A stretch of 64,000 nt of DNA from Halovenus aranensis (GTDB lineage: Archaea > Halobacteriota > Halobacteria > Halobacteriales > Haloarculaceae): the NCBI RefSeq assembly GCF_900100385.1, contig NZ_FNFC01000002.1, positions 1-64,000 of the forward strand. The letters run 5' to 3'. Below are positions 1 through 12,364 of this stretch, piece by piece. Both the position numbers and the translations under genes were made by a program. The notes below the pieces were generated by a model, which was not told the DNA's origin, made no database searches, and worked only from the letters and a program-made list of their open reading frames with translations. The stretch's first letter is position 1, and the number at the start of each line of letters is the position of its first letter.

Positions 1-103
1 GAGATGGGCGTCCGGACAGTCACCGAGGGCGTCAGCGCCGACGACGGCCCACTCATCGACGACGAGGTGGTCGTCACTGCCGACGTCGACGGCGACTGCT
101 TCG
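1..103 (+). repeat. Near-identical repeat shared with bases 1690-1792
   Basis: Bases 1-103 match 1690-1792 with only two synonymous differences (positions 96 and 99). The match stops abruptly at 104 and probably extends leftwards beyond the window. It lies in frame inside both paralogous genes and points to recent duplication or gene conversion. Confidence 0.95.
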
Positions 104-1065
104 TTCAGGCAACCCCGACGTGTCCGGACTGTACGACTCCGGACCCGGGAACTGACGACTTCGACGTCTCCATCGAGAGCGTTGACAACAGCGGCTTCCC
201 GACGGTCGAGGTCACGGCACGCATAGACACGACTGCGGGTGGCAACGGTGACCTCGACGCCTCCAACTTCGGAATCTGTGAGGAGACTGTCGACGGACTC
301 GGTGACGGGTTCTGTGGGCAGACAATCCAGGCGGTCAGATTCGGTGGGGAACAGGAGGAGACGCTCGCGGATATCATGTTCGTCCTCGACACGTCGGGGT
401 CGATGATCGGCTCGAAGATAGATAGCGCGAAAGATGGTGCCATACAGCTTGTCGGTGGCGATACCGACAGAACAAACGACGCCAACGCGGGCGGCTTCGA
501 CCCGACGGTCAACGCCGGGCTCGTCGAGTTCGACGGCGACGCGACGCTGGTGTCGCCTCTTGGCACCGACCAGAACCAGCTCGAAGACGACATCGCTGGC
601 CTTACCGGGGGCGGCACGACGGACCTCGGTGCTGGCATCTCGACGGCAAACACCGAACTCCAGAACTCACAGAGCAACCGGGCTAACGCGCCTGACTTCA
701 TGATTGTCCTGGGGAACGGAGACACCTCGAACGGGGCCGGCCCGGCCGATACCGCCAAGAACAACGGGACGACGATCTTCGGTATCGCTTACGGCGACGG
801 CGCTTCGGTGACCGACTTCGAGGACATCTCCGGCGAGGTCCCGAGCGACCCGAACTATCAGGATTACACCTTCGACGCGGACCAGGACGATATCACGACC
901 ATCTTCGACGAGATTGGCCAGGAGATATTCGGCACGTACACCATCGAGTACGAGACGGCCAACTTCGCGACCGACGGAACCGACCGGAACGTACGGGTGT
1001 ACGTCGACGACCCTTCCGCAGGCGACGCTGATACCACTGGAAGCTACACGTCTCCCTCCTCTTGA
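1..1065 (+). CDS. Secreted VWA-domain surface protein, 5' end outside the window
   Basis: The reading frame is open at the left edge, so the true start lies upstream. The first 34 residues visible (from Glu-Met-Gly-Val) are identical to an internal segment of the next gene's product, which shows this is a paralogue missing its signal peptide only because of the window boundary. After a Cys-Phe pair the proteins diverge: this one runs through a Cys-rich linker into a von Willebrand A domain with a MIDAS motif (Asp-Thr-Ser-Gly-Ser, near base 390). VWA domains bind protein ligands through a metal ion. By analogy with the neighbour it is exported and probably sits at the cell surface, perhaps as an adhesin. 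No C-terminal anchor is visible. Adhesive function is inferred. Confidence 0.8.
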   Translation, partial: EMGVRTVTEGVSADDGPLIDDEVVVTADVDGDCFVQATPTCPDCTTPDPGTDDFDVSIESVDNSGFPTVEVTARIDTTAGGNGDLDASNFGICEETVDGLGDGFCGQTIQAVRFGGEQEETLADIMFVLDTSGSMIGSKIDSAKDGAIQLVGGDTDRTNDANAGGFDPTVNAGLVEFDGDATLVSPLGTDQNQLEDDIAGLTGGGTTDLGAGISTANTELQNSQSNRANAPDFMIVLGNGDTSNGAGPADTAKNNGTTIFGIAYGDGASVTDFEDISGEVPSDPNYQDYTFDADQDDITTIFDEIGQEIFGTYTIEYETANFATDGTDRNVRVYVDDPSAGDADTTGSYTSPSS

Positions 1066-1194
1066 ATCCGCGCTCATTTTTGCCGCTCTGTACAGGCCGA
1101 TTACTCTCGTGTTGCCCGTTGCCAATCGGCCCATGCTACCCGACATGAATCACATACAAAGGTGGGTACAGTCCGTCGGTACCACCACAGGATA

Positions 1195-2628
1195 ATGAAC
1201 CGCAGAACGTTCATCGTTGGTGCCGGTAGTACAGTGCTTGGCGGGAGCGCACTCGTTGGCTCTGGTGCCTTTTCCAGTGTCGAATCACAGCGGGCCGTCT
1301 CGATCGAGGTTGCGACCGACGAGAGCGCCTACCTCGGGCTGAAGCCCCTCGATACGCCAAACAGTAACAACTACGTCGCGCTCGACGACGAGGGCCATCT
1401 GACAATCGACATTGCCGAACACGACGATTTTGACGGCCCAGAGACACAGCCTGGCACGGGCGTCAACTCCGACTCACGAACGTACTTCGACGGGATGTTC
1501 GAGTTGTGTAACCAGGGCAAAGAGGGAGCCTGTCTCAGCTACTCGCTACCCGACGGCGTCGTCGCGAACGCCGTCGACGCCCAGACAGTGGCCTTCTATT
1601 ATGTCGAACGCGACAGCGACGGCGCGGTGACGAATCGCCGAGTCGTCCGAGAAGGGGAGAAACTCCCGCTTGCGCTGGGTGACTGTGCAGAGATGGGCGT
1701 CCGGACAGTCACCGAGGGCGTCAGCGCCGACGACGGCCCACTCATCGACGACGAGGTGGTCGTCACTGCCGACGTCGACGGCGATTGTTTCGGTGATGGC
1801 TCTGGCGAACTGACAGAGCTCGCGGTCCCAGTCGAACTGCGTACCGAGAAAGCGCTGGAAGACGACGAGTCAGTCGTCGCCGCGGTCGACCCCAGTCCGA
1901 TAAACGGCGGCGGAAGTCTGCAAAACCCAGTCCCGAAAGACGTGTCGCTCACCGGACAGCAGCCGGAGTCGACAGCCGTCTTCACGGTTGTGGCGGACCA
2001 GCAGCCGGTAGACTACGAGATTGCAGTCGACGTCGACGACGAACCGGCGGGACAGCCTGCCGCAGTCATCAGCGGCGACGGCCAGCAGGCCGACGTGCCT
2101 CCCGACGCAGACAGCGTCGTCGCCAATCCGGTCGAGATAGACGTTGCGCTGTCGCTGCCGACGAACGCGGACCCCGAGACAGAACTCGAAGCACAGTTCG
2201 ACCAGCTAACCGGCGAGACCTTCGGCACCAACGCCGTCGAAATCTGTGTTACGAGCGACGGTATAGACGGAGCCACCGAACTCGGCGTGCAAGTGACAGA
2301 CCACCACGGAACATTCGGACAGGCACCGACGACGTGGAACCCCAGTTCGTCGGACCTGGCATCGCTGCCCGTCGAGTTCGAGAACGGTATGGCCTGTTTC
2401 ACCGTCGGCAACCCCGGTGTTCCGCCCGCAGACCTGACGCTACTCTCTTTCGATGGCGGGCTGGAAACAGTCGACGATATCGAGAACATCGCCGTCGCTG
2501 TCGACGGGGATGAGCCCGACTCACTGGCGGTCAGAGGTGTCGACCTCTCGCAGCCGACATTCGACGTGTCCGGATATCAGGCCCGTGATACCACCCAACC
2601 GTTCGCTCAGTACCAAGCCGAGCGATGA
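1195..2628 (+). CDS. Secreted DUF1102/TasA-like surface protein
   Basis: The chosen start is the ATG at 1195, which gives a classical leader: Asn-Arg-Arg-Thr, a hydrophobic Gly/Ala/Val stretch, then Gly-Ala-Phe-Ser-Ser before the mature protein (477 residues). An upstream ATG at 1162 would add 11 residues ahead of the signal and is less likely. Haloarchaeal proteins with this leader and a following Ala-Tyr-Leu-Gly-Leu motif belong to the DUF1102/camelysin-TasA-like group, secreted beta-rich proteins processed by SipW-type peptidases. Residues from about 230 onward are acidic, beta-rich and lack recognisable enzyme motifs. Its N-terminal module is shared with the VWA paralogue just upstream. 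A filament or S-layer-associated role is inferred from the neighbouring signal peptidase and DUF5305 genes. Confidence 0.75.
   Translation: MNRRTFIVGAGSTVLGGSALVGSGAFSSVESQRAVSIEVATDESAYLGLKPLDTPNSNNYVALDDEGHLTIDIAEHDDFDGPETQPGTGVNSDSRTYFDGMFELCNQGKEGACLSYSLPDGVVANAVDAQTVAFYYVERDSDGAVTNRRVVREGEKLPLALGDCAEMGVRTVTEGVSADDGPLIDDEVVVTADVDGDCFGDGSGELTELAVPVELRTEKALEDDESVVAAVDPSPINGGGSLQNPVPKDVSLTGQQPESTAVFTVVADQQPVDYEIAVDVDDEPAGQPAAVISGDGQQADVPPDADSVVANPVEIDVALSLPTNADPETELEAQFDQLTGETFGTNAVEICVTSDGIDGATELGVQVTDHHGTFGQAPTTWNPSSSDLASLPVEFENGMACFTVGNPGVPPADLTLLSFDGGLETVDDIENIAVAVDGDEPDSLAVRGVDLSQPTFDVSGYQARDTTQPFAQYQAER
1690..1792 (+). repeat. Second copy of the 103-bp repeat at 1-103
   Basis: 101 of 103 positions are identical to the left edge of the window. 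It encodes the end of the conserved N-terminal module. Sequence after the repeat is unrelated between the two genes. Confidence 0.95.
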
Positions 2629-2757
2629 CGCCGCTAATGTGTCGACACCGAACGCGTCTGGTGGATATATAATAATGTTAAACGCGGTGCCTGAAAACAA
2701 AACATGCATTTGAACATCCACGTGAGTTATTTATTATTTATTGGGTTAATAGTTGTG

Positions 2758-2766
2758 TTTAAATAA
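2758..2766 (+). promoter_or_regulatory. TATA box for the HTH_10 regulator
   Basis: TTTAAATAA lies in a strongly AT-rich stretch (about 2724-2770) between the surface-protein gene and the regulator. Transcription would begin near 2789, giving a short leader before either candidate start codon (GTG 2815 or ATG 2854). Confidence 0.45.
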
Positions 2767-2853
2767 CTTTGCGACGAACAGGGATTCGTCGGCACGCGGC
2801 GTTCATTTGAGCCTGTGTTTGCCGGCGAACAGACGGGGAGAACGGAGATTTCC

Positions 2854-4437
2854 ATGATTGGACCACACACACATCGGGGTGACGTGCTCCGCGCCACGAC
2901 CGAAGAGGAATACGACGTACTCGTCGTCGAGGGCGAGAGAACAGCGGGCGCGGTCACGGAGCGACTCGAATCGGCTGACGAGACATTTACTCTCACGGAG
3001 GCGGTCGTTCACACCGCCGACGATGTCGACGACAGGGTCACCGACACCGAATGCATCGTCTGTGGGCCCACACTTGGCGCGAACGGTCGGTCTGCGGTCC
3101 TCTCTGCGGTAGGGTGCCGAGACATTTGTCGCTGTCCCGTAGTCGTCGTCTGTGAGACCGCTCAGGCGTGTGAGTCGCTTCTCGGTCGCGATGTCGTCAC
3201 AGACTGCATCCCGGGGAGTCAACTGGGCCAGAGTCCGACACTCGCCTGCCGAATCAGCACGCACATCGAGTCCTACCGTACCCGTCAAGCGCTCGCAAAC
3301 GCAGACCGGGCAAAGTTACAGATTCTCGAAACGCTCCGGGAAGCAGTCTCACAGCAGGAGGTCGGCACGGCATTCTGCCGCCTCCTGGTGAACGCCTACG
3401 GCTCTCAGTGTGCCTGGATTCGCACGACACAGGGACGTGGCGAACTCACCAGACAGTGGGCGGCCGGTGACACAGGCTACGTCAGCGACGTACTCGACGC
3501 CGATACCCGCGCTACTGAGCCGAGTATCAGAGCCTTCCAAACCGGTGATGTGACGGCTTTCGCACCGATTAACGGCGAAGACGGGGGGTGGCAGGCGACC
3601 GCGGCCGAGCACGGGTTCGGCAGTGCAGTCGGCGTCCCAATCGCCTATCAGGGAACCGTTTTCGGCGCACTCTCGGTCTACGACGAGATGTGTTCGATTC
3701 CGTCGGGGACGCGGGACTTTCTCTCTTGGTTCGCGCAGATTGTGGGGTACGCCCTCCGTGCGGCGGCGTGGCGCGAAGCGGTCCTGTCGGCGGCACCGGT
3801 CGCGGTCGAAGTCGAACTCACCGACGAGTCGGTGCCGCTGATCGACAGCCTCCAGGGGTTACCCGACGAGACACGTCTCTCGGTGCTGTCGGCGATACCA
3901 CGCGAAGAGGCTGTCCTCTATGTCATAGAGTTAGACGAAGGCCCGCCAGACGAGGCCCTACCCCGACTCGAGAGAGCCAGTGAGGGCGTTGCCGTTCTCA
4001 CCGAACGACCGCCCCGGTTCGAGGCGCTGTTCCGACAACCGACACCTGAGACAGTGCTCATGACACACGGGGGCCAACTCGTCAGCGTTTCGGTCACGCC
4101 GGAGGCAGTCGTGATGACGGTCGCAGTCCGGAGCGAACAGCGCGTCGAGGGGCTGTTCGACGCGTTCGAGTCCGAGTACGATGCCGTCTCGATAGGTGCC
4201 GTCTGGTCCAGAGGCACCGAAGAGCCGACCGGCTACGGCGATATTGCCGAGGCACTCACGCACCGCCAGCGACAGGTCCTCGAGTTCGCTTATCTCAACG
4301 GCTACTTCGACCAGCCCCGACGACACAATACGACAGAAATCGCGAAAAAACTCGGACTGAGCCGGCAGACCGTCTCGCAACACCTCCGTACGGCCCAACG
4401 AAAGCTCCTCCGTGAACTCCTGGAGCCAGAACGGTAA
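2854..4437 (+). CDS. Bat-like regulator with GAF and HTH_10 domains
   Basis: A protein of about 527 residues. The first 140 residues form an alpha/beta pseudo-receiver-like region. A GAF domain follows (roughly 160-320, with a typical Ala-Val-Gly-Val-Pro segment). The C-terminus is an HTH_10 DNA-binding domain: Leu-Thr-X-Arg-Gln near residue 475 and the helix-turn-helix Glu-Ile-Ala-Lys-Lys-Leu-Gly-Leu-Ser-Arg-Gln-Thr-Val-Ser. Bacterio-opsin-activator-like proteins of this build are haloarchaeal transcription regulators sensing light, oxygen or redox through GAF/PAS modules. The ATG at 2854 is preferred; a GTG at 2815 would add 13 residues. It sits amid the surface-protein genes and may regulate them, which is inference. 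Confidence 0.8.
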   Translation: MIGPHTHRGDVLRATTEEEYDVLVVEGERTAGAVTERLESADETFTLTEAVVHTADDVDDRVTDTECIVCGPTLGANGRSAVLSAVGCRDICRCPVVVVCETAQACESLLGRDVVTDCIPGSQLGQSPTLACRISTHIESYRTRQALANADRAKLQILETLREAVSQQEVGTAFCRLLVNAYGSQCAWIRTTQGRGELTRQWAAGDTGYVSDVLDADTRATEPSIRAFQTGDVTAFAPINGEDGGWQATAAEHGFGSAVGVPIAYQGTVFGALSVYDEMCSIPSGTRDFLSWFAQIVGYALRAAAWREAVLSAAPVAVEVELTDESVPLIDSLQGLPDETRLSVLSAIPREEAVLYVIELDEGPPDEALPRLERASEGVAVLTERPPRFEALFRQPTPETVLMTHGGQLVSVSVTPEAVVMTVAVRSEQRVEGLFDAFESEYDAVSIGAVWSRGTEEPTGYGDIAEALTHRQRQVLEFAYLNGYFDQPRRHNTTEIAKKLGLSRQTVSQHLRTAQRKLLRELLEPER

Positions 4438-4467
4438 ATCTCACTGCCCGAACGCGTTCGTAGCCAC

Positions 4468-5028
4468 CTACCGGCAGCCGAGGTAGACGCCTGCGACGGC
4501 CGCGACGCCCAGTGCCGACCAGTGGGCTGGCGAGAGAATCGCCACGGCTGGGAGGCCAACCGCGGCACCGCCGGCCAACAGCCAACTCGCGACGACGGCC
4601 GCGAGCATCGCTGCCTGGGCCACGTCCTCGATACCGTCACCGAGACACTCCTCTGGCGTCGACTCGCCGATGTCGCCGGTGTACGCTGCGAGCTGGTCGA
4701 TGGCAGGCCCCAGCCTGACGTGTTTCGCTCGCTCGTCGTAGTTGATAGTTCCTGTCTCGTCGAGCTTTGGCAGGTGTGTCTGAATAAGTGAGATATACAC
4801 GCTCTGGCGGTCGTTTCGGGACGGTGGGCTCTTGCCGGTCTCCTCGGCGGCAATCTGTTCGGCAATGTCCCTGGCCGGCGCTTCTCTCGTCTGATGGAGG
4901 ATACGTAGTACCGCGCGACGCCTGTTGTTCCGCAGTAACTCGTGAATTTCACCCTCGTCGAGCGTCGATTCGTTCGTGCTATTTCCCCGACCTCCTTCCC
5001 GCTGTTTCGATAGCTGAATCTTACTCAT
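4468..5028 (-). CDS. DUF7344-like winged-helix protein with C-terminal membrane segments
   Basis: The 186-residue product has an acidic N-terminus, then a winged-helix fold (about 25-120): a leader helix, a motif Ala-Arg-Asp-Ile-Ala-Glu-Gln-Ile, and Leu-Pro-Lys-Leu-Asp-Glu-Thr-Gly followed by a short wing. This matches the haloarchaeal DUF7344 family, small DNA-binding proteins. Two hydrophobic segments close the protein (about 137-158 and 164-184), so it may be a membrane-tethered regulator. It is convergent with the HTH_10 gene (30-base gap) and divergent from the secreted-protein gene at 5250. The family label is from recognition of the pattern; the target genes are unknown. Confidence 0.7.
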   Translation of the reverse strand: MSKIQLSKQREGGRGNSTNESTLDEGEIHELLRNNRRRAVLRILHQTREAPARDIAEQIAAEETGKSPPSRNDRQSVYISLIQTHLPKLDETGTINYDERAKHVRLGPAIDQLAAYTGDIGESTPEECLGDGIEDVAQAAMLAAVVASWLLAGGAAVGLPAVAILSPAHWSALGVAAVAGVYLGCR

Positions 5029-5249
5029 GTTGCCCCCGCACCTGCATAGTCCATGTGTAACCCTATCAAACGACTACCTGCAAACGACATTCTATTGTAT
5101 AAATATTCCGGATGTATATATGAGAAAAAACGCGACGGACGATAACCGGCGATTAGGTCTGGGGTTTTCGCGGTACACGCGGTATAACATGTTCTAACAG
5201 TCCGTTATGGGGACCATAGCTAAGCACGTCATCGTTGTGGTGCTATGAT

Positions 5250-6161
5250 ATGAGACGCCGAGAGCTTCTGTTCGGCGCGGTCAGTGTGGCGACGGGTGCG
5301 GGCCTTCTCACGGGCGCACAGGGGGTTTCACGCTCTGGGTCACAGCGGACCGCACGGGTCGCGGTCGAGGGCGAGGACGACGCCTACGTCGGTCTCGAAT
5401 TCCGCGACCGACTCATCCTTGACGGGACGGGAAACTGTACCGAGACCGCTGACATCCTCACCGTCACGAACCAGTCGAAGCTAGAACTCACGAACTTTCA
5501 GGTAGATATTACGCTCGACAACGCCGACGCGTTCGAGATTACGGACACGTCCGTTCCCGACAGTCTCGCGACCGGCGAGTCGGGAACGGTGACTGTTACG
5601 GTCGCGAGCGCTGGGTCGGAGAACACGGTGGCGACGGTCGACCTCGTCGCCAACACCGACGGGGACGACCCACAGTCTGTGCTCGGAACCCAGGGGCGTT
5701 TCGAGCTACACCGGTCGTGGGACCTCGCGCTTCGTGCCAACTGTGCCGTGTCCGGACCCGAGGTCAGCTTCGTGGCGTTCGTTCCCGGGGGTGCCACCGA
5801 GGCGACTGCGCTTTCGACGCCGACCGTCGAGTCGATGGCCAGAAACGCCGACGGTGAGGTCACGCTCGTCGAGTGGCAGTCGGAGGTCTCGGTGGCTGAG
5901 GTAGTCGTCTACGGCGGCCGAGAGTGGTTCCTGTGCGATGGCGGAACACACGGGACAGCCGGGACGAACGAGCGTGAGACCGACTGTCGGAAGCTGGGGG
6001 TTGGTACCTGCGTCGGTGCCGAAAAACCGTACCGGTGCCCCAGTTCGCCCGGAGAAAAACAGCAATGCGTGAAATACAGGCTCGGCAGCGACGGTCTCAC
6101 CGCCAGGACACAGACAGCAGCCGAGTGCCCCAGCGGATGTACCAGCGGAGACGGTAACTAA
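5250..6161 (+). CDS. Secreted TasA/DUF1102-like protein with Cys-rich tail
   Basis: The start is ATG 5250, giving Met-Arg-Arg-Arg-Glu-Leu-Leu-Phe-Gly followed by a hydrophobic leader and an Ala-Tyr-Val-Gly-Leu-Glu motif in the mature protein. That motif is equivalent to the Ala-Tyr-Leu-Gly-Leu motif of the gene at 1195. Residues about 65-150 read as a beta-sandwich of the kind seen in archaeal surface proteins (Leu-Thr-Val-Thr-Asn repeats with Gly-Glu-Ser-Gly-Thr-Val). The last 80 residues carry seven cysteines, unusual for haloarchaeal secreted proteins and likely disulphide-bonded or metal-binding. It lies upstream of the signal peptidase on the same strand but is separated from it by a minus-strand gene. 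Confidence 0.7.
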   Translation: MRRRELLFGAVSVATGAGLLTGAQGVSRSGSQRTARVAVEGEDDAYVGLEFRDRLILDGTGNCTETADILTVTNQSKLELTNFQVDITLDNADAFEITDTSVPDSLATGESGTVTVTVASAGSENTVATVDLVANTDGDDPQSVLGTQGRFELHRSWDLALRANCAVSGPEVSFVAFVPGGATEATALSTPTVESMARNADGEVTLVEWQSEVSVAEVVVYGGREWFLCDGGTHGTAGTNERETDCRKLGVGTCVGAEKPYRCPSSPGEKQQCVKYRLGSDGLTARTQTAAECPSGCTSGDGN

Positions 6162-6166
6162 CTACA

Positions 6167-7000
6167 CTACCGATCTGTTCCAGTGAATAGACTGCCACAT
6201 TCCGGACAGTCGAGCGAGATGCTCTGGATGTCCGACCCACAACAGCTCGACATCGTTTCGACGTTTTCTTCGAGTTGCTCGTCACAGGCAGGACACCGCT
6301 CCAGCATCGCCCGCAGCCTGACGAGATGCTCTGTTCTGGCATGGTCGGGCAGTTCACTCCAGCCGGAGACCCACTCGCCCAGTGTCGGGTCTGCGGCCAG
6401 GTCGGCGAGAAACGCCCCTTTCGAGGACCACTGTGCGATTCGGTCGCCCTGGTATCCGACGACGAATCCTGCCGACTTCTCCTCGAAGGACAGTGCTGCC
6501 GGGTCGACGCGTATCGTCGCCGCGAGCTGCTCTTTGGCCCGCTCGTTGTCACGGAACCGCTCGATTCGCCGCCACCAGGTCTCGCGGAACGACGGTGCCA
6601 GACACAGGTCATCCACGTCGGCACAGGGCTCGACGACTCCCGCGCCGACGAGTTGCTGTGCCGGCTCGTCGGTCTCGTCGGACGGACCGACGGCAGCCGT
6701 CTGTGTCGCGCCAGCGCCGTCGGTCGCCGTCGGCTGTTTCCCGAACAACACGAGGACTTGCTCCGGGAAATACCGCTGTGTGAGTGTCGGCGTCCCGGGC
6801 ACCAGATATCCTCGGAAGTAGATTGCGAGGACAGCGACGACGAACGCTGTGACGCCGAGTGAAACAGTGACGACCGCGAACGCCCCGGCGACACCCCCTG
6901 CAATCACGAGATTCACGGCGGTACACGGAAGACAGCGGTTCGGGCCGACGTATTCGTCTTGCCGGAGCCGACTGTGGATAGTGCGTATCCGAGATGGCAT
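6167..7000 (-). CDS. Membrane protein with C-terminal zinc ribbon
   Basis: The start at 7000 gives Met-Pro-Ser-Arg-Ile-Arg-Thr; longer versions add an unlikely Cys-rich leader. A conserved N-terminal Asn-Arg-Cys-Leu-Pro-Cys-Thr motif is followed by one or two membrane segments (about 30-70). A soluble acidic region follows, and the C-terminus has four Cys pairs (Cys-Pro-X-Cys, Cys-Cys, Cys-Pro-Glu-Cys) typical of a rubredoxin-like zinc ribbon. I recall this Asn-Arg-Cys-Leu-Pro-Cys-Thr type as a conserved haloarchaeal membrane family, with no established function. It is divergent from the signal peptidase gene across a shared 215-base promoter region. Confidence 0.65.
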   Translation of the reverse strand: MPSRIRTIHSRLRQDEYVGPNRCLPCTAVNLVIAGGVAGAFAVVTVSLGVTAFVVAVLAIYFRGYLVPGTPTLTQRYFPEQVLVLFGKQPTATDGAGATQTAAVGPSDETDEPAQQLVGAGVVEPCADVDDLCLAPSFRETWWRRIERFRDNERAKEQLAATIRVDPAALSFEEKSAGFVVGYQGDRIAQWSSKGAFLADLAADPTLGEWVSGWSELPDHARTEHLVRLRAMLERCPACDEQLEENVETMSSCCGSDIQSISLDCPECGSLFTGTDR

Positions 7001-7180
7001 ATCGCGCCGTAACGCGGCCACCACATTTGGTATGATGCACGTACCTGAATCGCCCCGGCATGGGCCGTGGTCCGCGGACAGATACACAGGGAATATTCCG
7101 GAGTATGGCCCGGTTGTCGCCGGTATAAGGAGGAATTAAATAATCCATTGGCCGGAGTAGGCTCCGCCAGCACTCTTGGC

Positions 7181-7225
7181 ATGAGACTGAGAACAGCCGT
7201 GGGAGGGCGGTCGCGATGGGGGTAG
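7181..7225 (+). other. Possible 14-codon upstream ORF overlapping the signal peptidase start
   Basis: ATG 7181 opens a 14-codon frame ending in TAG at 7223-7225, ten bases past the signal peptidase ATG at 7216. A TATA-like ATTAAATAA lies at 7134-7142. The peptide (Arg-rich) is unlikely to function itself, but translation could affect initiation at 7216. Confidence 0.2.
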
Positions 7226-8382
7226 TCAACCGGATAGCCAACTGGCTGTTGCTGGTGTTATTGGTGCTGGTGGCCGTTGCGCTGGTGTCGACTGTCGTTA
7301 TCGGTCAGCCGGCGGTTCTCGGCGTCATCGAGAGCGGAAGCATGGAGCCGACGCTGTCGACCGGTGACGGCTACGTGCCGATTCCCGCAGTTCTTGCTGG
7401 CGATGTCGAGACGGGTGACGTTGTCACGTTCGAATCGAGTGGTATCGAAGGAGGGCAACCGACCACCCATCGCGTCGTAGAGGTCACAGAGTCCGGATAC
7501 ATCACGAAAGGGGACGCGAACCCGGTCACGGACCAGGATACCGGCGCACCCCCGGTCGCCGCCGAGGAGATTACCGCCGTGGCCCTCGCCGTAAACGGCG
7601 ATGTCGTTCGGATTCCAGGAGTGGGCGTGGTCGTGGGTCTGCTCCGCGGTGGGATATCCTGGCTCCAGGAGACGCTCGCGTCGCTGTTTGGAACAGACCT
7701 CTTTGGCGGTGAACGAGGGCTGGCACTCACGCTATTCGGTGCCGGGATAGCATTGCTTGGCACCGAATTCATCGTCGAGCGACGGGGGCGTTCCAGGGGG
7801 GACCGGTCGCGGTCGCGCTCTCGGTTCGACTGGAACCGAATCGACAATAAACTCCTCGTCGGTGGCCTCGTCGTCCTGTTGATGCTCGTTGCGACAGTAG
7901 GGATGCTCGTCCCCGCCGGGTCGACGACATTCGAGCTCATCAGCGCGGAATCAGACGCCGAGACGCCGCGTGTGACACAGGTCGGTGGCACCACCGAACG
8001 ACCCTTCGTCGTGGAGAACGGGGGCCTGCTGCCGGTCAGAGTCATCGTCGAGTCGGAGTCAAACGGCCTCACTGTCGAAGACGAGCGGTTCTCACTCTCG
8101 CGGGGCGGCGTCCACGAGCAGACGATAACCACGTCAGCGCCCCAACAGACAGGCCTCTACCGGCGCTCGATAACCGAGTATCGCTACTTCCAACTGCTTC
8201 CGCCGGCGGTCATCGACTCCCTCCACGAGGTCCATCCGGCAGCCGCGCTGTTGGCGATAGACCTGCTCGTCGGGGTCGTTGCCGGCAGCGTCGGGCTGTT
8301 GGCCGTCGGCACCGGCCGCCTCCGGACGCGGTCACGCTCTCGCCCTCGAAGCGGTCTCACAGGTCTATTCGACCGGAGATAG
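7216..8382 (+). CDS. Archaeal signal peptidase I (S26B, SipW-like) with extra C-terminal domain
   Basis: Cleaves signal peptides of exported proteins at the outer membrane face. Catalytic Ser42 lies in Ser-Gly-Ser-Met-Glu-Pro, directly after the N-terminal membrane helix (11-29). His85 (Thr-Thr-His-Arg-Val) replaces the bacterial Lys, as in the archaeal/ER type, and Asp100 lies in Lys-Gly-Asp-Ala-Asn. After the peptidase domain come a helix near 170-190, a second membrane helix near 213-235, an extracellular beta-rich domain, and a final helix near 345-365. At 388 residues it is much longer than the minimal peptidase. Location beside TasA-like proteins and DUF5305 suggests it is dedicated to them, like SipW for TasA. 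Confidence 0.88.
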   Translation: MGVVNRIANWLLLVLLVLVAVALVSTVVIGQPAVLGVIESGSMEPTLSTGDGYVPIPAVLAGDVETGDVVTFESSGIEGGQPTTHRVVEVTESGYITKGDANPVTDQDTGAPPVAAEEITAVALAVNGDVVRIPGVGVVVGLLRGGISWLQETLASLFGTDLFGGERGLALTLFGAGIALLGTEFIVERRGRSRGDRSRSRSRFDWNRIDNKLLVGGLVVLLMLVATVGMLVPAGSTTFELISAESDAETPRVTQVGGTTERPFVVENGGLLPVRVIVESESNGLTVEDERFSLSRGGVHEQTITTSAPQQTGLYRRSITEYRYFQLLPPAVIDSLHEVHPAAALLAIDLLVGVVAGSVGLLAVGTGRLRTRSRSRPRSGLTGLFDRR

Positions 8383-8384
8383 CT

Positions 8385-8546
8385 ATGAAACATCAACACA
8401 CGCCGAAACGACACGCCGGTGTATCGCACACCTCGGGGACAGCCGGGGGAGTCACAGAGTACGACAGCCGACCGAGCGCCACCAGCCGGATGCGGTGTCG
8501 CCGTCGGCCCGCCGGAACTGCCGCCGGTGTGGGGACAGTGAGGTGA
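8385..8546 (+). CDS. Doubtful 53-residue basic ORF filling the gap
   Basis: An ATG two bases after the peptidase stop opens a frame that ends six bases before the DUF5305 start, filling the gap almost exactly. The product is rich in Arg, His and Ser and poor in acidic residues, unlike the surrounding proteome, and has no recognisable motif. It may be fortuitous. Confidence 0.2.
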   Translation: MKHQHTPKRHAGVSHTSGTAGGVTEYDSRPSATSRMRCRRRPAGTAAGVGTVR

Positions 8547-8552
8547 CGCGGT

Positions 8553-9749
8553 ATGGAGCCACCGCTCCGGGACCGGCTTCGCCTGTTCGTCGCCGACTAC
8601 GCCGCGGTCGTCGCGGTGTTGCTCGTGTTCTGTCTCGTGGCCGGCGGCTGGGGAGTCTACGCCGCCCAGCCCGGGACCGAGACCGAAACCGTCGTCACCG
8701 ACCAGTGGGGCGAACAGGGCGGGTTCAACCACACCGCTACCGTCACCCAGGCGACGCCGGTGTTCGAGCAAGGAGCGACGCTCGAACGCCAGCTCTACTA
8801 CACCGCAGTGTCGCCGGTGCTCGAAGGCAGCTACTCTTACCAGCACTCCGACGACGTAGCACGGACGGTCACGATGACCATTCAGGTTGTCATCCAGTCG
8901 GTGCGAGAGGAGGGGCGACTCTGGCGGCGAACCGAATCAGTCGAGACCGTCGAAGCGACGCTCGGGCCCGACGAGAACGCCGTCGGTTCGTGGGAGACGA
9001 ACGTCTCGGCCGACCAACTCCGCATAGCGGACATTCAGGAACGGCTCGGAGCGAGCCTCGGGACACCCGAAATCCTGGTCATCGCCGAGGTGACGAGCAG
9101 AGCCGAACAGGGTCAGCCGACGCGACATACGCGAAGCCTCCGGGTCGAACCGAACGGGGAGACGTTTACCGTGGAATCGCCCGACAGCTACAGTGAGACG
9201 TTCGAGACCACCGACGAGCGCACGGTCGAGACCGACATTGCCATTCCCTTCGCACTGGGAGGGGGGACCGCAATCGTGGTCGGGGTCGCCGGGCTGGGAC
9301 TTCTCGGGGTCATCCAGTACCGCGGTGGCATCGCTGTCCCCGAAGCGGAACGGGAACGGCTACAGTACGCTGACACACGGGCCGAGTTCGACGAGTGGAT
9401 TACGACAGGCAAGACGCCGACCGCCACCGACGACGTGCCAGAAATCGAGGTCGAAGCGCCGGATGGCCTCGTCGACGTGGCAATCGACACGAACCAGCGT
9501 GTCATCGAGGATTCCAGAACCGGCGTCCTTTCGGTTCGGACGCCGACAGCGATATACCGGTACGTCCCACCGGCATCAACAGTGAGCGACGACCGACTGC
9601 AGTACCGGAGTGTCGGAGAGTCGACCAACGGCCACACGCCGACAGAAGGGGTGATGACGACAGCCGGGGCCGACGGCGACAGCGAATCGACTGCGACAGA
9701 CGACAACTCACAGGCAGACTCGGCCGACCAGAGCCAGGACGATAGCTGA
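8553..9749 (+). CDS. DUF5305-type membrane protein
   Basis: Residues 17-40 form a first membrane helix, a long extracellular beta-rich domain follows (about 42-225), then a second helix (about 230-255) and a cytoplasmic acidic Ser/Asp-rich tail. This two-helix layout with Tyr/Thr-rich ectodomain matches DUF5305 proteins, which in archaea are repeatedly encoded beside SipW-like signal peptidases and TasA/DUF1102-like secreted proteins. It follows the signal peptidase by 170 bases on the same strand and is likely co-transcribed. A role as assembly platform or anchor for the secreted filament-like proteins, analogous to TapA, is inference; no catalytic motif is seen. Confidence 0.7.
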   Translation: MEPPLRDRLRLFVADYAAVVAVLLVFCLVAGGWGVYAAQPGTETETVVTDQWGEQGGFNHTATVTQATPVFEQGATLERQLYYTAVSPVLEGSYSYQHSDDVARTVTMTIQVVIQSVREEGRLWRRTESVETVEATLGPDENAVGSWETNVSADQLRIADIQERLGASLGTPEILVIAEVTSRAEQGQPTRHTRSLRVEPNGETFTVESPDSYSETFETTDERTVETDIAIPFALGGGTAIVVGVAGLGLLGVIQYRGGIAVPEAERERLQYADTRAEFDEWITTGKTPTATDDVPEIEVEAPDGLVDVAIDTNQRVIEDSRTGVLSVRTPTAIYRYVPPASTVSDDRLQYRSVGESTNGHTPTEGVMTTAGADGDSESTATDDNSQADSADQSQDDS

Positions 9750-9880: not shown

Positions 9881-12364
9881 ATGCAGCAGACACGAAGACG
9901 GTGGTTGCAGTCAGCAGGAGCGGTTCTCACAAGCGTCGCGCTCGCGGGCTGTAGCGGAAGCGATTCCGACGAGCCCGAGGAGACCGAAGGGGGCAAGCAG
10001 ACCGGCGACACGCCCGACAGCAACGCCACTGAGGACGGGTCGGGAGAAGACGGGTCCGATGGCGGCGAGTTCGCCGCAGTCGACGTTGCGGTCGCCGCCG
10101 AGTGGAACGCGATTCGGACGCGTCTGCGTGACCCGGTCATTCTCGGTCACGCAGAGGAGTATGCCGCCGGTGCGGGGGTCGTCGGCGACATCTTCGAGCG
10201 CTTCGAGACTGCCTCTGGGGAGTACAACGCACACGAGATGCTCGAGGAGACCAGTACGGAACACTACGAGGGGTTCGAGGCGGGGCTCAATGACCTCCGC
10301 GAGACGCTCGAAGCCGAAGACCTCGAGGGCGCACACGAGGCGATGCATGCGGCCGATAAACACCTCCGGAAGGCACAGGCGGCCCTGACCGATAACGCGA
10401 CAGTCAAGCGACTGTCGATGCTCGTAATGGGCGCACACGTCGAAGACGCGGCCATGTTGCTCGAAGTCGGCGACTACGACGATGCGACACACGAGTTCTC
10501 GAACATCGGCGGCAAGTTCGAGGAGAAACACTACGATATGGTCGCCGAGGCCGACAGCGAGGCAGCCGATGGATTCCTCGATGCGATAGACCGTGCCGAG
10601 GCGAACGCGGAGTCGGACACCGAGGCGGCGATAGCGGCGGCACACGAGGCATTCGGTGCGGCAACGCAGGGAATGCACGCGCTTGCGAGCGATTCGGTCG
10701 CCGGTGCCGCACACATGGCTGCCTTGCAGGCCCGTGGCTGGGACGGGATGGCGCTCGCTAACCTCGGTGGCGTCTCGCAGTCGTACGCTCACGCGGCGGC
10801 ACTGAACGACTACAGGGCACAGGCCCAGGACGCCATGTGGCTGTTCGAACACGGGAACGCGGAGGCTGCCGCGGCGTTCGTCCAGCGTGCCTTCGAGCAG
10901 TTCGAGACCGCTCGCGCCCACGACGCGCTCGAAGACGCCGACCACGACAGCTACGAATCCTTCGAGCGTGGACTCGAACAGCTCGGTGAGGCAATCGAAA
11001 ACGACAACGCCGAGGCCGTCGCGGAGGCGACAGTGACGGTCGAAGATGCGGTCAGGAGCGGCATCGAGGCACTGGCCTCGGGCCACGGACCCGCCCTCCT
11101 CGAAGCCGGCTACATGAAGACACGCATCGAGGACGCCCACGAGCGGTATCTGCTCGGCGAGAGCGAACGGGCCGGCGAAATCGCCCAGTCAGTGTTTGCG
11201 GACTTCGAGGCTGACGCCGGTGGCTTCCACGAGACGCTCGAGGAGACCGACGAGAGTCTCTACGACGCCTTCGAACACGAGCATCTGGAAGGACTCATCG
11301 AGGCCTTCGAGGCAGGCGACGACGAGGCAGTGACAGACCACGTCGAGGGCATCCGCGAGACACTGCTGTCGTTCGAGACCGCACTCGCCTCCCGACCGGC
11401 TGTCAGCGGCGTCGAAAGCGGCTACATCACCGCACGGCTTCGGGACTCGGTCGTTCTGGAACGACTCGACGCGACCGAGCGCGCACAGACCGTCTCGACC
11501 GACGCCTTCGGGTACTTCGAGGCGGGCGCCGGCGGCTTCCACGAGGCCATCGAGGAGGCCGACCACGAGACATACGAGTCCTTCGAGGGGGCAGTCGAGG
11601 CCCTCCAGAACAGTCTCGAAGACGACGGTACCACTGACGCCGTCGAGAGTGTCACAGCCTACGCCACAGACGCGACGTACGCCGTGGTCGCGGCCGGAAC
11701 CGGTGGTGCCGGCGCGGCCCCGTTCGTCAGTGATGTCTTCGCGCACTTCGAGGGAGCAGCCGTCCACGAACTGCTCGAAGACGCCGACCACGAGACCTAC
11801 GAGGCCTTCGAGGGCGCGCTCGAAACGTACATCGACGCGCTCGAATCCGGCGAGAGTCCGCGTGAGGCGGCAACTGTGTACGCCGACGGCTCGCTCAAGG
11901 CACAGTTCGCCGTTGCCGGCGCAGTCGAAGATGCGCCCGTCGACGCCGATGGTGGCGGAGACGGCAGTGACGGGGACGGGGCAACCTCGGAACTCGAAGG
12001 CGGACCGAACGTTGTCGAGGGCGTCCCAGACGACGCCGACCACGTGGTCGACATGACGGCTGTCGCCTTCGAACCCGAGGAGCTCACTGTCTCCACGGGA
12101 GACACGGTTGCCTGGAGCTTCGCAGGCGGCGAGCCCCACTCTGTGACGGCCTACGAGGAGAAGATTCCGGCGGAGGCCGACTACTGGGCATCGGGTGGGT
12201 TCGACAGCGAGTCCGCTGCTCGCGAGGGCTGGGAGAGCGGCAAGGGGGCGGTTCAGGACGGCGAGTCCTACGTCCGGACCTTCGAAACACCTGGCACCCA
12301 CGAGTATCTCTGTATTCCACACGAGGCCGCTGGCATGGTCGGGAGCGTCATCGTCGAGGAGTAA
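9881..12364 (+). CDS. Tat lipoprotein with DUF5059 repeats and C-terminal cupredoxin domain
   Basis: The leader has Thr-Arg-Arg-Arg-Trp-Leu and a lipobox Leu-Ala-Gly-Cys (Cys near residue 24), so it is a Tat-exported lipoprotein. Residues about 65-680 are an all-helical tandem repeat. Units carry His-Glu-x-Leu-Glu-Glu followed by Tyr-Glu-x-Phe-Glu (clear copies near 117, 345, 448, 552 and 627, a weaker one near 203), which fits DUF5059. The last 110 residues are a halocyanin-like blue-copper domain with candidate ligands His (Glu-Pro-His-Ser-Val), Cys and His (Cys-Ile-Pro-His) and Met (Gly-Met). Two iron boxes at the promoter imply induction under iron limitation. Whether the repeats bind a metal is unknown. 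Its stop codon abuts the stop of the convergent kinase gene. Confidence 0.85.
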   Translation: MQQTRRRWLQSAGAVLTSVALAGCSGSDSDEPEETEGGKQTGDTPDSNATEDGSGEDGSDGGEFAAVDVAVAAEWNAIRTRLRDPVILGHAEEYAAGAGVVGDIFERFETASGEYNAHEMLEETSTEHYEGFEAGLNDLRETLEAEDLEGAHEAMHAADKHLRKAQAALTDNATVKRLSMLVMGAHVEDAAMLLEVGDYDDATHEFSNIGGKFEEKHYDMVAEADSEAADGFLDAIDRAEANAESDTEAAIAAAHEAFGAATQGMHALASDSVAGAAHMAALQARGWDGMALANLGGVSQSYAHAAALNDYRAQAQDAMWLFEHGNAEAAAAFVQRAFEQFETARAHDALEDADHDSYESFERGLEQLGEAIENDNAEAVAEATVTVEDAVRSGIEALASGHGPALLEAGYMKTRIEDAHERYLLGESERAGEIAQSVFADFEADAGGFHETLEETDESLYDAFEHEHLEGLIEAFEAGDDEAVTDHVEGIRETLLSFETALASRPAVSGVESGYITARLRDSVVLERLDATERAQTVSTDAFGYFEAGAGGFHEAIEEADHETYESFEGAVEALQNSLEDDGTTDAVESVTAYATDATYAVVAAGTGGAGAAPFVSDVFAHFEGAAVHELLEDADHETYEAFEGALETYIDALESGESPREAATVYADGSLKAQFAVAGAVEDAPVDADGGGDGSDGDGATSELEGGPNVVEGVPDDADHVVDMTAVAFEPEELTVSTGDTVAWSFAGGEPHSVTAYEEKIPAEADYWASGGFDSESAAREGWESGKGAVQDGESYVRTFETPGTHEYLCIPHEAAGMVGSVIVEE

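Follow-up and report, generated by a model that had tools for sequence, protein, structure and literature searches.

Tat-fimbriae (tafi), the AbpA pilus and the Sulfolobus thread are donor-strand fibres. According to PMC12687288, haloarchaea use the Tat system to export the building blocks of thin filaments on their surface, TafA being the core component, and the name Taf, for Tat-fimbriae, is credited there to Galeva et al. (iScience 2025, doi 10.1016/j.isci.2025.111793). A filament of this kind from Natrinema is available in the PDB as 9p0a, entitled 'Structure of Natrinema sp. J7-2 Tafi pilus', for which a literature search found nothing. AbpA, in turn, is reported to be structurally related to TasA (PMC9674648). 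We analysed a stretch of 64,000 nucleotides from Halovenus aranensis, termed the window, which starts with the first base of its contig (C42) in an assembly of 3.29 Mb and 56 contigs. The region at its start very likely represents most of a divergent tafi cluster, predicted to encode a Tat-exported and S26B-cleaved donor-strand fibre together with accessory proteins. The following features were identified:

1-95, no strand given: 95-bp perfect repeat, identical to 1690-1784
1-1065, plus strand: 3'-terminal portion of a gene that probably encodes a Taf-vWA fusion subunit (PF00092, 2.6e-19)
1195-2628, plus strand: Taf subunit gene (TafE 47.7 bits, TafA 36.6 bits, both below cut-off)
2815-4437, plus strand: GAF-BAT-HTH_10 regulator (PF04967, 2.8e-20; PF15915, 3.8e-9)
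4468-5028, minus strand: winged-helix protein of the DUF7344 type, with membrane segments near its C-terminus (PF24035, 3.6e-28)
5250-6161, plus strand: TafC-like secreted protein (TafC 41.9 bits over residues 13-142, cut-off 410)
6167-7087, minus strand: membrane protein whose C-terminal part has CxxC motifs resembling a zinc ribbon (TM-like segment 71-89)
7216-8382, plus strand: S26B signal peptidase with an extra membrane-anchored ectodomain (TIGR02228 72.7 bits, cut-off 51.85)
8553-9749, plus strand: DUF5305 membrane protein with two TM segments (PF17231, 6.6e-36, 124 bits)

Directly past the cluster, at 9881-12364, lies an unrelated gene for a DUF5059 protein that has a plastocyanin domain and starts with a twin-arginine leader of the lipoprotein type (RRRWLQ...LAGC).

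Kinship of the subunits with tafi is seen in sequence as well as in fold. Gene 1195-2628 encodes an RR leader, a GAF cleavage site and a Taf beta-sandwich at about residues 26-200, followed by a 270-aa C-terminal extension (residues about 206-477) for which no homologue was found in any locus fetched. A profile built from 63 subunit domains of the window and related loci recovered 9p0a from the PDB as the sole convincing match (E 8.3e-34), and the TafE and TafA models are matched by 63/63 of these rows. The AlphaFold (AF2) model of this gene is confident for about residues 41-200 only, where pLDDT is mostly above 70, and C-terminal halves are poorly modelled. Residues 35-195 of this model superimpose on 9p0a with a Z score of 10.7 (rmsd 2.8, 137 aligned), and the Taf domain matches the AbpA bundling pilus 7ueg (Z 9.0, rmsd 3.7, 129 aligned) and the Sulfolobus thread 7pnb (Z 8.3, rmsd 4.4, 143 aligned), the latter tied with two plant glycosidase chains at Z 8.3. 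Chaperone-usher pilins such as FimG score lower (Z about 6.6); values below 8 may reflect a common arrangement, and therefore only 9p0a, 7ueg and 7pnb are used. The original prediction had proposed a matrix-fibre system related to TasA and the archaeal bundling pili. In its core, a surface fibre akin to the bundling pili and with a peptidase of its own, this proposal is supported; TasA is absent among the structural matches listed for the Taf domain of gene 1195.

The leaders of gene 1195, of gene 5250 and of the two paralogues C33a and C33b discussed below contain RR, and across the 63-row subunit alignment RR falls within the first ten residues in 59/63 rows. G24 and A25 are invariant in this alignment and F26 is conserved to at least 90%. 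By these motifs the subunit leaders are twin-arginine leaders, and TatC is present in the genome. In the 9p0a model, 188 of the 215 residues in the chain are observed, from which we infer that its maturation would fit a loss of about 27 residues by a cut at GA↓F. Three proteins with DUF1102/TasA-like leaders had been predicted; two of them, the products of genes 1195 and 5250, carry RR leaders, while the leader of the first gene lies beyond the contig end. That prediction did not include the vWA domain, the reading of the twin arginine as a Tat signal, the zinc-ribbon membrane protein or the 95-bp repeat. Of the proposed DUF1102 kinship there is a score of 19.6 for gene 1195, below the Pfam cut-off of 22.2, and no DUF1102 match for gene 5250 with the Pfam models. 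The product of gene 5250-6161 combines a twin-arginine leader, in which GVS replaces GAF, with an Ig-like N-domain and a Cys-rich C-terminal part. A chaperone role is not claimed for it, because many Ig-like structures, among them the COPI and AP2 appendages and the PapD/FimC chaperones, tie as matches to its AF2 model (Z 8-10).

The first gene (1-1065) is truncated at its 5' end by the start of the contig and hence its leader lies outside the window. A vWA domain occupies residues 124-301 of the visible part (PF00092). Full-length homologues in three other genomes (G117, G118 and G113) combine an RR leader with a Taf and a vWA domain, and therefore the gene very probably encodes such a fusion, with most of its N-terminal Taf domain lost at the contig end. 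The product is predicted to be a tip or adhesive subunit. In its vWA domain the DxSxS motif is kept (DTSGS) but the usual third aspartate motif is missing by eye, so that metal binding is uncertain. The first 95 bp of this gene are identical to 1690-1784 within gene 1195-2628 and the two genes diverge beyond this tract. Most likely the first two subunit genes recently underwent a duplication or gene conversion, and the contig broke at the resulting tract.

A further part of the cluster is probably found on another contig of the same assembly. This 3.3-kb contig (C33; L002:1-3323) carries a divergent DUF7344 gene and two Taf subunit genes, one of which, C33a, encodes a short Taf-only paralogue. 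At both ends it bears a repeated element, in inverted orientation, that is present on at least five other contigs, and the 95 bp with which it begins recur without mismatch at the ends of C38 and C7. With such ends, C33 could not be joined directly to the start of the window. In the closest relative (G105), in which the peptidase is 67% identical, one contig begins this gene series with a DUF7344 gene, after which come the orthologues of both C33 subunits, a vWA-Taf gene, a pair of HTH_10 genes, a second DUF7344 gene and finally a TafC-like gene; the latter is the orthologue of gene 5250, adjoins DUF7344 and is 55% identical. The zinc-ribbon gene, peptidase and DUF5305 are located on a second contig. 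Judged from this gene order, C33 is probably the missing upstream part of the cluster, immediately preceding the window and now split off from it by the repeated element. Elsewhere in the genome a solitary Taf-like gene (G000:C12:101392; L006:7282-8313), a 343-aa ORF, lies next to a subtilase gene and away from any peptidase or DUF5305.

Certain features of the locus do count against tafi. The window proteins all score below the Taf equivalog cut-offs, and the similarity to TafE and TafA is found mostly in the leader and first half. It could be envisaged that the proteins are secreted or S-layer-associated adhesins that use Taf-type leaders and domains, but are displayed singly and do not polymerise. 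The window subunits are indeed long and carry extra domains (vWA, the 270-aa extension) compared to the roughly 200-aa TafA, and a Taf-only shaft subunit is missing inside the window. However, the genome does encode a Taf-only paralogue, C33a, the gene order of the closest relative joins C33-like genes to the vWA gene, and the fold matches that of three donor-strand fibres. We therefore regard single adhesins as unlikely and favour a divergent tafi cluster.

The accessory genes are in line with a tafi cluster. The predicted S26B peptidase with Ser42, His85 and Asp100 was borne out: TIGR02228 is matched above its cut-off, and these residues as well as Asp106 are invariant in 17 homologues, in agreement with an archaeal S26B signal peptidase. 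The protein has four or five membrane-like segments. Its ectodomain, which had been singled out as an extra, is present but standard among haloarchaeal orthologues, with alignments spanning the whole length. It is the only S26B peptidase over cut-off in the genome, where a second, weak match has 268 aa, and DUF5305, likewise predicted, occurs in a single copy. The membrane-tethered winged-helix protein noted before turned out to be DUF7344. Residues 133-157 and 161-179 form TM-like segments, as occur in 64/65 homologous ORFs. DUF7344 is a putative core regulator of tafi clusters. To call DUF7344 and the peptidase TafB and TafD would be a guess from gene order.

Neighbourhood conservation was counted in 39 loci around peptidase homologues, all from one family and including G013, that are not independent of each other. 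Within 10 kb of the peptidase a subunit gene is found in 38/39 loci, DUF5305 in 37/39 and DUF7344 in 36/39, and DUF5305 follows directly downstream on the same strand in 31/39. Control regions 400 kb away in such genomes contained the four families in 0/20 cases (Fisher p <1e-12, for loci from one family that are not independent). The co-location on which the prediction had relied is thus far from chance and is kept in other haloarchaea. Peptidase homologues are present in 82/96 good genomes of the family, and the gene content is the same in the majority of 23 named loci, which come from many genera of haloarchaea. In G013, TafF, TafE, TafA and TafC over cut-off are clustered with DUF7344, a peptidase homologue and DUF5305. 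The window peptidase is thus homologous to that of a bona fide tafi cluster, and in locus L135 the homologue adjoins an over-cut-off TafC. In one genus a run of nine Taf subunit genes lies beside the peptidase (L214, G108:C360, 723-8468), which suggests a strong subunit expansion there.

Two window genes fall outside this core. The predicted Bat-type HTH_10 regulator is present and has a syntenic orthologue in the closest relative, but was rejected as a core component since an HTH_10 gene occurs in just 2/39 loci; judged from gene content, it is lineage-specific and kept in the closest relative. Homologues of the zinc-ribbon membrane gene adjoin the peptidase in G102, G103, G105, G108, G109, G112 and G113 and none was found among the 39 wider loci, so that by its distribution this gene is a genus-level companion. 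Finally, a genuine TasA-TapA-SipW matrix system of haloarchaea, separate from tafi, to which the weak match of the peptidase to the SipW equivalog (NF046067, 50.4 bits, cut-off 190) and the fold match to the TasA-related AbpA (PMC9674648) might point, is highly improbable, given that all sequence matches lead to Taf models and 9p0a, TasA family models are matched by 0/63 subunit members and the leaders contain RR.

For the tafi cluster the following scheme, which draws on established knowledge of the tafi, AbpA and thread filaments, is the most likely. The subunit precursors, that is the vWA fusion, the products of genes 1195 and 5250 and the C33 paralogues, would be exported in folded form by the Tat pathway and cleaved by the neighbouring S26B peptidase, for which the invariant motif ...(S/T)GA↓F would be the target. 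With its N-terminus freed, each subunit may then insert a stretch of about residues 26-46 into the groove of the beta-sandwich of the next subunit, giving rise to a thin donor-strand fibre like the tafi and bundling pili. The best candidate for the shaft is C33a, and the head-bearing subunits (vWA; 270-aa extension) would be minor components at the tip or decorating the surface. DUF5305 and the TafC-like proteins might help in assembly or anchoring, and DUF7344, in this lineage together with Bat, might control expression. A possible, still tentative extension is that Taf-vWA fusion subunits cap or decorate the tafi fibre as an archaeal counterpart of vWA-tipped bacterial pili, and that gene duplication or conversion shuffles heads onto a shared Taf plug.

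The kind of fibre has already been named and its filament solved (9p0a); new are the divergent version and the subunits with extra heads including vWA, which could explain the binding targets of the fibres. In this haloarchaeal family nearly every locus of the kind is accompanied by the tafi gene set, including a dedicated peptidase, DUF5305 and DUF7344, and the latter two gain testable roles.

Compared to Bacillus TasA-TapA-SipW, the locus shares the general logic that a dedicated S26 peptidase is encoded close to the fibre subunit it would serve. It differs in that no TasA model is matched, the peptidase stays below the SipW cut-off, the leaders are of the twin-arginine type and a TapA counterpart was not identified. 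AbpA (7ueg) and the thread (7pnb) resemble the window subunits in the fold of the subunit domain, whereas sequence-level kinship was not found. Closer is the Natrinema sp. J7-2 pilus, which is related by profile and fold, but its pilin is a Taf-only protein of 215 aa with about 16% identity to gene 1195. With the Tat-fimbriae the locus has in common the clustering of RR leaders and TafA/TafE-homologous Taf-fold subunits with a TafC-like protein, DUF7344, an S26B peptidase and DUF5305. It differs by proteins far below the equivalog cut-offs, subunits with vWA or other C-terminal domains, the added Bat and zinc-ribbon membrane genes and an unlike gene order. No TafA over the NCBIfam equivalog cut-off occurs in the whole genome, and we therefore do not claim the cluster as the Haloarcula tafi operon itself.
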